Notes under the pieces: generated by a model
The model's database searches: none
What the model saw: the letters and a program-made list of their open reading frames with translations, nothing else
What the model was told of the DNA's origin: nothing
Part shown: positions 1,071-29,737 of the stretch, one piece after another
How the letters are laid out: the number at the start of each line of letters is the position of its first letter
Numbering within the stretch: position 1 is the first letter of the stretch
Assembly: GCA_021162425.1 (NCBI GenBank)
Contig: JAGGYQ010000012.1
Coordinates: forward strand, 1 to 34,813
Direction: 5' to 3'
DNA: 34,813 bases
From: Candidatus Aenigmatarchaeota archaeon
GTDB lineage: Archaea > Aenigmatarchaeota > Aenigmatarchaeia > QMZP01 > QMZT01
Program-made: the position numbers and the translations under genes

Positions 1071-3041
<1,971 letters not shown>

Positions 3042-3049
3042 GTGTTTGA

Positions 3050-5482
3050 ATGGCAGAAGAAACTAAACACGAAAATATGAAAGAAAGGTTGATAGAAGAA
3101 GAGATGAAGACAAGTTATCTTGATTACTCGATGTCCGTTATCGTAGGGCGCGCATTGCCTGATATAAAAGATGGTCTGAAGCCTGTTCAGAGAAGAATTT
3201 TATATGCGATGTATGAAATGGGCCTGCTCCATAACAAGCCGTATAAAAAATGCGCAAGGATAGTTGGTGAAGTTCTTGGTAAATACCATCCACACGGCGA
3301 TCAAGCAGTTTACGACGCGCTTGTTCGACTGGCTCAGGACTTCTCCTTGAGACACCCGCTTATAGACGGGCAGGGTAATTTCGGTTCAATAGACGGCGAT
3401 GCCCCGGCAGCTATGAGATACACAGAGGCAAGGCTTCGTAACGAGGCAGAAGAGCTTCTGACCGACATAGACAAAAACACCGTAAACTTTGTTCAGAATT
3501 TTGACGCTTCACTTAAGGAGCCTCTTGTCCTACCGGGGAAGTTTCCAAATCTCTTGGTAAATGGGGCGTCAGGTATAGCGGTTGGTATGGCAACAAACAT
3601 ACCACCGCACAATTTAAGCGAGGCAATAGATGCTATAATCGCAACCATAGACAACCCAGACATTACTGTTGAGGAACTGATGGGATACATTCTTGGCCCT
3701 GATTTTCCTACAGGCGGGATAATTCTTGGTAAAGCAGGTTTGATACAGGCATACAAAACAGGGAAAGGATTGATAACAGTCAGAGGGCGTGCAGAGATTG
3801 AGCCAAGAGGAAGCGACAGAGAAAGAATCGTTATAAAGGAAGTGCCATATCAAGTCAACAAGGCAAGACTCATAGAGGAGATAGCGAGAAATGTAAGGGA
3901 AAAAAGAATAAAGGGTATAACCAACATACGCGACGAGTCAGACAAAGAAGGCATAAGAATCGTAATAGATGTTTCCTCAAATACACCCGCGAACGTTGTT
4001 CTGAACAACTTATACAAGCACACCCAACTACAAACGACCTTTGGCATAAATCTACTCGCCCTCGTCGACAATCAGCCTCGACTTCTCAATCTCAAGGAGA
4101 TGATAGTCGAATTCATAAAACACAGGAAAAATGTCGTCACAAAAAGGACGAAATTTGAACTCAGAGAAGCAATGGAAAGAGAACACATACTTGAAGGTCT
4201 TATAATAGCGCTTGACGACATAGACAGGGTGATAAAAACCATAAAATCATCGAAAAACGCCGAAGAAGCAAGGAAAAGATTGATATCGGGATTTGATTTA
4301 AGCGAAAAGCAGGCACAGGCAATACTTGACATGAAGCTTCAGAAACTGACGAATCTCGAGCAGGAAAAGATAAGAAAAGAACAGGAATCGCTCGTCAATA
4401 AAATAATGGAATTGAAAGATATACTCGAACATGAAGAAAAGATTTACGGTATAATAAAGAAGGAACTTGAGGAAATAAAAGAGAAATATGGCGATGAAAG
4501 GAGAACCGAAGTGGTGAAAGGACGTGACAGGATAGAGGACCTCGAGGATGACAGGCTCATCAAACAAGAGGATGTTGTAATACTGATATCCGAAAATGAC
4601 TACATAAAACGTGTCCCGCTCGACGAATACAGACAGCAGAGAAGAGGCGGGAAGGGGATGATAGGAACGCGAACAAAAGAGGGAGACATAGTAAAGAATG
4701 TCTACGTTGTCAATACGCACGATTACCTCATGTTCTTCACAAACAAGGGAAGGGTTTTCTGGTTAAAGGCATATAAAATACCAGAAACTAGCAGGTATTC
4801 AAGAGGGAAGCATATGGCGAATATACTCATGCTTCAAAAAGACGAAAAAGTAAAGGACATAATACCAGTTAAGAAGTTTGAAAAAGGCTTTTACATATTC
4901 TTTGCAACAAAGAAAGGATTGGTGAAAAAAACCGAACTCATGGAATACAGCAGACCCAGAAATTCTGGAATAATAGCAATAAGGTTAAAGGAGGGCGATG
5001 ACTTAATAGAAGCTAGGCTAACCGATGGGAATAAGGAAATAATCTTGGCTACAAAGAAAGGTTATGCCATAAGATTCAGCGAAGCAGACGTCAGACCAAT
5101 GGGGAGAATATCCTCTGGTGTTCGTGGGATAAGATTGAGAAAGGGTGACGAAGTTGTTGGAACAGCCGAGGTTGTTTACGGTGAGTCGTTGCTCACGGTA
5201 ACAGAAAAAGGTTTTGGTAAAAGAACGAAATTCTCGTTGTATAGACGACAGAAAAGAGGCGGAAAAGGAATAAAAAACATGAGAATAACTGAGAAAAACG
5301 GAGACATTATAGGTTGTGAATCAGTAAATGATGAGAATGAAGTGGTGTTGGTTTCCAGAAACGGTCTTGTAATACGGACATTTGCAAAAGACATATCAGA
5401 GGTTGGACGTGTTACTCAAGGCGTGCGTGTTATGAGATTGGATATTGATGATAAATTGGTTTCTCTTGCAAAGGCAGGTTGA
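3050..5482 (+). CDS. gyrA: DNA gyrase subunit A
   Basis: [26 protein letters not shown], catalytic-Tyr region [10 protein letters not shown], canonical GyrA box QRRGGKG and a second QKRGGKG; 8 nt after gyrB. Confidence 0.98.
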
Positions 5483-5490
5483 ATTTTGGA

Positions 5491-5768
5491 TGCGCCGGCC
5501 GGGATTTCCAACATAAGGGAGCCTTCCCCTCCCTTATCAACCCTTCCGAGCCATAAGGGAATAAGGGCGCCACGCCCGCCCTTATCAACCCATCCTACCG
5601 TTAAGGCGCCACGCCCTCCTTTATCAACCTTTCCGAGCCGATGGGGTTTCAGCTTTTGAACCCGGGTTACAGGCTTGGGAAGCTTACACCAGAGATTTCG
5701 AAAGATGTATGCCAAGCATACATCGATTTACATCCTGTCCGTGTCCTACCAGGCTAGACTACCGGCGC
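5491..5768 (-). tRNA. tRNA-Gly(CCC), interrupted in the T-loop and probably in the anticodon stem
   Basis: Acceptor GCGCCGG/CCGGCGC with A73; D-arm GTCT..GGAC; loop TTCCCAA (anticodon CCC, 5677-5679); T-stem CCGGG/CCCGG. T-loop insert about 5505-5654; putative 29/30 insert 5684-5738, which restores stem CGGGC/GCCTG (one G-T wobble). TATA-like AAATATAATAG upstream. Confidence 0.88.
5505..5654 (-). repeat. T-loop insert of tRNA-Gly with three tandem 42-48 nt hairpin units
   Basis: Units at about 5504-5545, 5544-5591 and 5592-5639, each built around GGTTGATAARGG..GG..CCTTA hairpins. Confidence 0.85.
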
Positions 5769-5865: not shown

Positions 5866-6243
5866 CTATTTCTTCTTTGCTTCAGGGCTCACGAAGAGGA
5901 TGATGGAACCTATGAGCACGATTATGTCTATGGGTGGGAGAAATGCTGCAATCAAAGCATATATTGCTGCTCCGTGGAAATCCTTGGATGCCATTTTTTC
6001 GAATGTCTTCCATATGAGGAAGAGTCCTATCAAAGACAGCACCACGAGTCCTGCTACAATTCCTGTCCAGAACGCCCCGAGACCTATCGGAGCGAACATC
6101 ATTGCATACGGGCCCAAAGAGAACGCTGTTATCGAAAAGAGTATCCCTATTATTTTCAGGACGAATGCCACCAGAACCACTATCTTCCCTATCTTCGCCT
6201 CAGTACTCAGACCCTCAAAGTCAACCAAATTATTTAAATCCAT
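5866..6243 (-). CDS. Small multi-span membrane protein, hypothetical
   Basis: ORF track; several hydrophobic helices; convergent to none, begins close to the tRNA-Ser 3' end. Confidence 0.7.
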   Translation of the reverse strand: MDLNNLVDFEGLSTEAKIGKIVVLVAFVLKIIGILFSITAFSLGPYAMMFAPIGLGAFWTGIVAGLVVLSLIGLFLIWKTFEKMASKDFHGAAIYALIAAFLPPIDIIVLIGSIILFVSPEAKKK

Positions 6244-6286
6244 ACTATAGTTTTCGTGGCTCAGCTTAAAAAGATTTATAGAGGAG

Positions 6287-6679
6287 CGCTGGGTGCAGGA
6301 TTCCCGTGAGCCTTTTCCTGAAAAAGGCTCAAGCGAAAAGGAGCCTCACTCCACTTCGTTTCGCTCGGCTTCCATCGGAAGCGAACACAGAGATATTCCC
6401 AATGCTTTTGCCTTGAGGAAAAGCTTCTCGGAAGCGAGTGAGCCTGCGAGCGAAGCTCCTTTTGCTCCACCGCTTTTCTTGAAAAAGCGGTGTTTCGAAC
6501 CTGCGCGGGCGTACGAGCGAACGACGCACACTCCATGCGCGTCAATCTGGAGCAGCGAAAGACACACACTCCATGCGCGTCAATCTGGAGCAGCGAAAGA
6601 CGCACACTCCATGCGCGTCAATCTGCTTTTCGCCCACAGGGTTAGCAACCCTGCGCCTTAACCGCTCGGCCAACCCAGC
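6287..6679 (-). tRNA. tRNA-Ser(GCT), interrupted in the T-loop and in the variable arm
   Basis: Acceptor GCTGGGT/ACCCAGC with G73; GGCCGAGCGGTTAAGGC D-arm; CAGGG-TTGCTAA-CCCTG (anticodon GCT, 6644-6646); variable arm GGGCG...CGCCC; T-stem GCAGG/CCTGC. T-loop insert about 6301-6493 (193 nt). Confidence 0.9.
6511..6624. repeat. Three 38-bp tandem repeats within the variable arm of tRNA-Ser
   Basis: 6511-6548, 6549-6586, 6587-6624; consensus ggagcagcgaaagacgcacactccatgcgcgtcaatct; first copy diverged at its left end. Confidence 0.93.
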
Positions 6680-6763
6680 TTGCTCCACAATACAAAATCT
6701 TACGCATAATCTTTATAAATATAAACTAGTTAATATCAATAAATGATTTTATGAGGTGAATAT

Positions 6764-7069
6764 ATGGCGATAAAGGTTGCTAGCATCTCTGACACATACG
6801 GAAAGGATGTTTTTACACACAAAGGGATGTTTTGCGGAAAAGTAGAAGATGTCGAGTGTGACCTTAAGAGATTCAAGATTCGTTCGCTCGTAGTCAGGGC
6901 TGCAAAGGAGTCATACATTTCAAAAATGCTCGGAAACAAGAAGGGGGTTATCATTCCGTTTCCCATGGTAGAATCAATAGGGGATATAATAATAATCAAA
7001 CACATATCCCTGCCCGTTTCTGAAGAAACGCCAAGTGAAGAACCACATGCGCAGGCAACGAGTATGTAA
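6764..7069 (+). CDS. PRC-barrel-like domain protein
   Basis: ORF track; short beta-rich protein with SLVVRAAKESYISKMLGNKKGVIIPFPMVESIGDIIIIK, resembling archaeal PRC-barrel proteins. Confidence 0.55.
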   Translation: MAIKVASISDTYGKDVFTHKGMFCGKVEDVECDLKRFKIRSLVVRAAKESYISKMLGNKKGVIIPFPMVESIGDIIIIKHISLPVSEETPSEEPHAQATSM

Positions 7070-10245: not shown

Positions 10246-10432
10246 TGGGGCCGCCGAGATTCACAGACGAAAAGCCCCTTTTGGAACAACAGCGTTTCTA
10301 CGCTGCCCGCCATTTGAACTCGGGTCGGCAGCACCCCAAGCTGCAATGCTCATAGCGCCAAGCTCAAAAGCTCGAGGTTGGCTAGGCCATTGCAGAGCCT
10401 TCCCTTAGAAGGCTTGACTACACCACGGCCCC
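10246..10432 (-). tRNA. tRNA-Pro(GGG), interrupted in the T-loop and in the D-loop
   Basis: Acceptor GGGGCCG/CGGCCCC with A73; GCAGC-TTGGGGT-GCTGC (anticodon GGG); T-stem CCGAG/CTCGG. T-loop insert about 10260-10312 (53 nt); D-loop insert about 10362-10415 (54 nt, boundaries uncertain). Confidence 0.9.
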
Positions 10433-29573: not shown

Positions 29574-29737
29574 GGCCGCGGTAGTGTAGCCTGGCCTAGC
29601 ACGGGGGCCTGTGGAGCCCCAGACCCGAGTTCAAATAAGCCTCTCCATTACATATCATAAGGAGTGATGCCTTGACAGTAGGAAGGGTTGATAAGGGAGG
29701 GGAAGGCTCCCTTATGTTGGAAATCTCGGCCGCGGCC
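29574..29737 (+). tRNA. tRNA-His(GTG), interrupted in the T-loop
   Basis: G-1 (29574) opposite C73 (29737); acceptor GCCGCGG/CCGCGGC; GGGGC-CTGTGGA-GCCCC (anticodon GTG, 29611-29613); T-stem CCGAG/CTCGG. T-loop insert about 29636-29723 (88 nt). Confidence 0.93.
29681..29725 (+). repeat. 45-nt block identical to the reverse complement of 5503-5547
   Basis: GGAAGGGTTGATAAGGGAGGGGAAGGCTCCCTTATGTTGGAAATC in both. Confidence 0.97.

Follow-up and report, generated by a model that had tools for sequence, protein, structure and literature searches.

The double-hairpin elements of mitochondria are small, codeless repeats of two hairpins that are dispersed in spacers and structural RNA genes. The repeat described here resembles those of fungal and algal mitochondria (e.g. 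PMC7218506, PMC4478555) in being small, codeless, dispersed and built of two hairpins, but it lies on an archaeal chromosome, is unrelated in sequence and is tied to a tRNA intron of the protein-spliced kind. In the Thermoproteales, as reviews summarise the work, noncanonical bulge-helix-bulge (BHB) tRNA introns have spread by transposition (Sugahara 2008; Fujishima 2010, reviewed in PMC4033280, PMC4090602). In those accounts, as here, BHB introns occupy noncanonical positions in many tRNAs, several to a gene, different isoacceptors carry similar introns, and the endonuclease is permissive; however, the Thermoproteales belong to another phylum, and here the introns are long, consist of double-hairpin units, and share the unit with intergenic DNA and a 16S rRNA gene. 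Junctions at 59/60 are known in the permuted tRNAs of Thermofilum and Cyanidioschyzon (PMC3218864), where the T-loop splice position is identical and processing is likewise of the BHB type, whereas the intron here interrupts a normally ordered gene without permutation. Disruption by a recombinase-bearing mobile element has been proposed for the Caldiarchaeum tRNA-Thr (PMC3293823), and there too a mobile element is the proposed source of a tRNA intron; that element is 1.8 kb long with a recombinase gene, whereas here gene-less units of about 65 nt form the intron itself. Endonucleases of the epsilon2 type are reported to cleave noncanonical, diverse BHB-like introns (PMC12397907, PMC4033280). 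The ARMAN-2 epsilon2 system has an enzyme of the same type as the genome studied here, homologous over its full length, but ARMAN is another lineage, and the consulted parts of these two reports describe no repeat-based introns for it. A literature search of partial coverage, and so weak as evidence, turned up neither introns of this kind reported from Aenigmatarchaeota nor a tRNA intron family that doubles as an intergenic hairpin repeat. The spread of introns among tRNA genes is already known; what is new, so far as could be checked, is their link to a repeat that occurs outside RNA genes as well.

The window is the whole 34,813-nt stretch of contig JAGGYQ010000012.1 (assembly GCA_021162425.1) from a Candidatus Aenigmatarchaeota archaeon, the group to which the relatives named below also belong. 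Its genome (954,499 nt in 75 contigs, read as stretches) is about 93% complete. The original prediction placed here a 393-nt tRNA-Ser(GCT) gene with a 193-nt insert in its T loop, and both are confirmed, the gene on the minus strand and the insert at exactly 6301-6493. The locus has the following features.

6287-6679, minus strand: tRNA-Ser(GCU) gene, 393 nt including two inserts, recognised from its sequence and a weak Rfam tRNA match to its 5' part.
6301-6493, minus strand: 193-nt insert, a probable BHB intron at tRNA positions 59/60, judged by its splice motif, the restored T arm and covariation over 53 inserts.
6496-6499, minus strand: exonic strand of the predicted BHB helix, UUCG (nucleotides 54-57), followed by the bulge AA^A.
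6303-6306, minus strand: intronic strand of the predicted BHB helix, CGGG, followed by the bulge AA^U.
6430-6492, minus strand: double-hairpin unit 1, running along the gene, with hairpin I (6468-6492), the linker GAGCAAAAG, then GGAGC...CGCTTCC.
6308-6373, plus strand: double-hairpin unit 2, in the opposite orientation to the gene, with hairpin I (6308-6330), the linker AAGCGAAAAG, then GGAGCC...GGCTTCC.
6512-6629, minus strand: insert of about 118 nt in the V-arm loop, read from the sequence as three tandem hairpins GATTGACGCGCA-TGGAG-TGTGCGTC.
6712-6719, minus strand: TTTATAAA, which reads like an archaeal TATA box, 33-40 nt upstream of the gene.

The gene has the acceptor strands GCTGGGT/ACCCAGC, a D arm, the anticodon arm CAGGG-TTGCTAA-CCCTG (GCU), a V arm and the T arm GCAGG-TTCGAA...T-CCTGC, and as a whole it folds with z = -7.9. 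A genome-wide search returned its anticodon arm once; apart from this interrupted gene, no serine tRNA gene for AGC/AGU codons was found in the genome. Standard tools overlook most tRNAs in this lineage: ARAGORN missed all four tRNA genes of the window, and Rfam at gathering score recovered none of the apparent Gly-UCC, Pro-GGG and His-GUG genes there. A custom-written finder, which may miss tRNAs with unusual arms, was run on the window's own genome and found 35 tRNA genes, 28 of them longer than 100 nt and at least 19 with T-loop inserts, 13 to 193 nt long; five matches in coding sequence were discarded as false. The three other tRNA genes of the window also carry T-loop inserts: apparently Gly-UCC (5491-5768, minus strand, 150 nt), Pro-GGG (10246-10432, minus strand, 53 nt) and His-GUG (29575-29737, plus strand, 88 nt). 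A second family of T-loop introns, which ends in AAGGCTCCCTTATGTTGGAAATC and has repeated GATAAGGGnGGG...CCCTTAT hairpins, occupies six tRNA genes of the genome with up to 97% identity (window 5491-5768 and 29575-29737; G000 C24:10155, C28:20134, C37:179 and C46:19375). Elsewhere in the window, at 1134-5482 on the plus strand, neighbouring ORFs have translations that read like the B and A subunits of bacterial-type DNA gyrase, here in an archaeon.

Several lines of evidence suggest that the T-loop insert is a BHB intron. The exonic UUCG (54-57) can pair with the CGGG just 5' of the 3' junction, leaving two 3-nt bulges in the canonical bulge-helix-bulge arrangement. Cleavage at the predicted boundaries, 6494/6493 and 6301/6300, would yield GCAGGUUCGAA^UCCUGC (GCAGGTTCGAA^TCCTGC in DNA letters) and restore the perfect, canonical T arm GCAGG-UUCGAAU-CCUGC. 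T arm and insert together fold at -96.7 kcal/mol (z = -6.1). Among 53 T-loop inserts of this genome and its relatives, 40 have a perfect 4-bp splice helix and about a quarter do not; for inserts longer than 40 nt the full helix is present in 32 of 44, compared with a mean of 1 and a maximum of 5 when the partner was slid by 1-24 nt. Nucleotide 57 covaries with its intron partner across the 53 inserts (p = 1e-8): where it is G, 21 partners are C and 5 are T, and where it is A, 20 partners are T and none is C. We regard the helix counts and the covariation as strong evidence for the splice helix, and judging by motif and enzyme the cell can probably remove the 193-base intron by splicing. A group I or group II intron was not supported: no Rfam ribozyme family matched the window at gathering score, and a search at E up to 10 over 6000-7000 returned just a weak tRNA match and one chance match.

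The genome encodes a 400-aa splicing endonuclease of the epsilon2 type, which aligns end to end with the ARMAN-2 epsilon2 enzyme (4fz2, E = 8e-104) and conserves its FRIYFPG, EWIHS and VKKTF blocks. For the whole tRNA to be normal, the V-arm insert must likewise be removed or else tolerated. A BHB scan of that insert gave many repeat-driven candidates and no clear one; GGCG AA^A / CGTC GT^T, with a 108-nt intron, is plausible but no better than the others. The V-arm insert recurs at 95% in tRNA-Ser(CGA) (G000 C24:10981-11344), which has two copies of its unit, and hairpins of the form GATTGACGC...GCGTC, like those of the V arm, occur in introns of one relative (G013), so that this insert may be part of a second family of repeats.

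The two similar hairpins said to bound the T-loop insert stand exactly where the original prediction put them, with CACCGCTTTTTCAAGAAAAGCGGTG at 6468-6492 on the gene strand and GAGCCTTTTTCAGGAAAAGGCTC at 6308-6330, and within the window CTTTTCYTGAAAAAG is confined to this pair, even when 2 mismatches are allowed. Their similarity is not due to chance: in 100 dinucleotide-preserving shuffles of the insert, no pair of 15-mers reached the 14 or more identities seen between two 15-mers of the insert itself. The likeness extends past the hairpins, each being followed, in inverted orientation, by RAGCnAAAAGGAGC. The insert thus contains two inverted units, which explains the resemblance. The earlier view of the hairpins as paired element ends stands as to their relatedness but not as to their role, since each is hairpin I of a double-hairpin unit that elsewhere also occurs singly. 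Comparison of copies gave a unit consensus in which hairpin I, with the core CTTTT(T)YN..RAAAAG and a variable foot, is followed by the linker RAGCnAAAAG and by GGAG(G)CY...RGC(C)TTCC, which is able to form hairpin II. Of 52 distinct copies, 44 have a fully paired hairpin I foot, compared with 7 in shuffles; the paired feet take 17 different forms, indicating that hairpin I is conserved by compensatory change. Hairpin II is fully paired at its three outer positions in 8 of 43 copies, compared with 1.7 in shuffles, which is moderate support. Foot pairing was counted directly, and a MAFFT alignment of the hairpins was set aside because it misaligned the arms.

Related introns occur in other tRNA genes. 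The tRNA-Cys(GCA) intron of the genome belongs to the same family, shares 85 identical nt with the tRNA-Ser(GCU) intron at its 5' end and includes unit 1; a tRNA-Leu gene also carries the family, and in the relatives many isoacceptors have similar intron sequence. The hairpin pair is retained in the paralogous tRNA-Cys and tRNA-Leu introns and in several introns of relatives, and there are many further copies, as expected under the original prediction. The comparison with orthologous tRNA-Ser(GCU) genes that it had suggested found the intron absent. Some orthologues have no T-loop insert (L016, L017, L025, L027, L029, L031, L032, L034 and others), and others carry at this site an insert, 31 to 391 nt long, that is unrelated (L019, L023, L024, L036, L037, L042). 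The intron is specific to this genome among the orthologues seen, and the empty or differently filled sites mark this T-loop position as a hot spot of gain or replacement.

To survey the repeat more widely, we used hairpin I plus linker as a search pattern. Within the order it gave 45 matches, spread over 13 of 41 genomes, compared with 1 match for a reversed control; outside the order, 117 other genomes of the phylum gave 5 matches compared with 3 for the control. The 52 distinct copies comprise 36 in tRNA genes, 1 inside a 16S rRNA gene, 13 apparently intergenic and 2 in coding sequence, the last probably by chance; contexts were called partly by the finder and partly by eye, in relatives represented by draft assemblies. 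Copies in tRNA genes lie mainly at T-loop position 59/60, where the unit begins 1-4 nt past position 59, and some lie in the D loop or at the anticodon. A single tRNA gene of one relative (L252, G033:C62) has repeat copies in both the D-loop region and the T loop.

Copies outside tRNA genes are known from relatives, because all recognised copies of this genome lie in tRNA genes. One 16S rRNA gene (L244, G013:C18) is interrupted near its 3' end by a repeat copy, AAGTCGTAA^...^AACAAGGTAGCC, which is probably a 16S rRNA intron, and a further related copy adjoins the 3' end of a 23S rRNA gene (L208). In G025 one copy stands after rpl23; in its congener G033, rpl23 has no copy and is followed by different genes. 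The spacer between SufS and SufU holds a copy in both congeners, but the copies differ. Clear direct repeats flank two of 12 intergenic copies: at L218 a duplication of 18 nt with one mismatch, and at L255 a diverged duplication, about 50 nt long, of the beginning of SufU. Other repeats were seen during this survey. One further hairpin repeat, AACCCTTT...AAAGCGTTnACGGAAAG, lies within T-loop introns of tRNA genes and apparently also in spacers (G013 L198, L202, L227 and L259; G012 L040; G000 C20:3910-4125). A palindromic repeat, GCCTGCCGGCGATGTTATCGCCGGACCTG, is very abundant in G033 and G025, with dozens of copies in G033, and is at times nested within the double-hairpin unit.

We consider it highly probable that the insert is a BHB intron at 59/60, spliced by the epsilon2 enzyme, made of inverted repeat units and gained by insertion or copying of units. 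The original prediction of a small structured or mobile element with related hairpin ends is thereby largely borne out, amended in that the insert reads as an intron. In the pre-tRNA-Ser(GCU), the exonic UUCG and the intronic CGGG would form the 4-bp helix with its two 3-nt bulges. The intron body would consist of two inverted copies of the lineage-specific double-hairpin repeat, each intron end folding into its own hairpin. Unit 1 extends from the 5' splice site in the direction of the gene, unit 2 from the 3' side in the opposite direction, and the inverted linkers are predicted to pair and start a long central rod that draws the splice sites together. The endonuclease would cut both bulges and the exons would be ligated, restoring the T loop UUCGAAU. 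Introns of this family most likely arise when repeat units are inserted or copied beside a site capable of forming the BHB motif, and would persist because a substrate-tolerant epsilon2 enzyme removes them.

Other readings were weighed against this one. That the gene is a broken pseudogene or an assembly artefact, with unrelated sequence in its T loop, is hardly credible: it has two large inserts, that of the V arm without a clear splice motif, and ARAGORN reports no tRNA in the window, but every stem is intact, a TATA-like box is present, the architecture is shared by most tRNA genes of the genome, and no other Ser-GCU anticodon arm was found in the assembly, which is about 93% complete. More weight attaches to the possibility, still unlikely in our judgement, that these are ordinary tRNA introns whose copying, through gene conversion or homologous recombination, is restricted to tRNA genes, the repeat having no mobility of its own and the intergenic copies being relics of lost tRNAs or by-products. 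Most copies do lie in tRNA genes, all of them in this genome, and the identity of the Ser and Cys introns starts in the T arm and then gives way to divergence, as in a conversion tract. Against this, copies are present inside 16S rRNA, in the D loop, at the anticodon and between protein genes (rpl23-rpl2, SufS-SufU), where no remnant of a tRNA was noticed, and direct duplications flank two intergenic copies. Gene conversion alone does not readily explain the intergenic and 16S copies.

Dispersal, turnover and the two flanking duplications argue for mobility of the repeat. Inverted hairpin pairs resemble REPINs and the ends of IS200/IS605 elements, and this genome has two Y1_Tnp matches, so a REPIN or IS200/IS605-like element mobilised by a Y1 transposase (TnpA or RAYT) was considered. 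That origin is very unlikely and was not supported when Y1_Tnp was searched in seven genomes, a search that identified no mobilising enzyme for the repeat: five of the seven, incomplete assemblies all (G025, G028, G033, G015, G019), lack a match, and yet G025, G028 and G033 rank among the most copy-rich genomes. Copies also commonly occur as single units or in direct arrays. A 157-aa Y1_Tnp (IS200-like) transposase frame was noted in this genome at G000:C15:194-553 (L247), away from the introns. Tentatively, and with more doubt than conviction, we also entertain a stronger form of gain by unit insertion, in which the double-hairpin repeat of Aenigmatarchaeota is a codeless mobile element and a self-contained intron maker: it would prefer to insert next to T-loop position 59, where its end and the conserved TTCRA would create the BHB motif, and would also enter rRNA genes and intergenic DNA.

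The case bears on how archaeal tRNA genes gain introns. The intron body consists of a recognisable repeat, traceable both within RNA genes and beyond them, and related genomes offer orthologous sites both empty and filled, so that the direction and the mechanism of gain can be put to the test. If the repeat is indeed a self-contained intron maker, intron gain in archaeal tRNA genes would be the outcome of a selfish repeat tolerated by the epsilon2 endonuclease.
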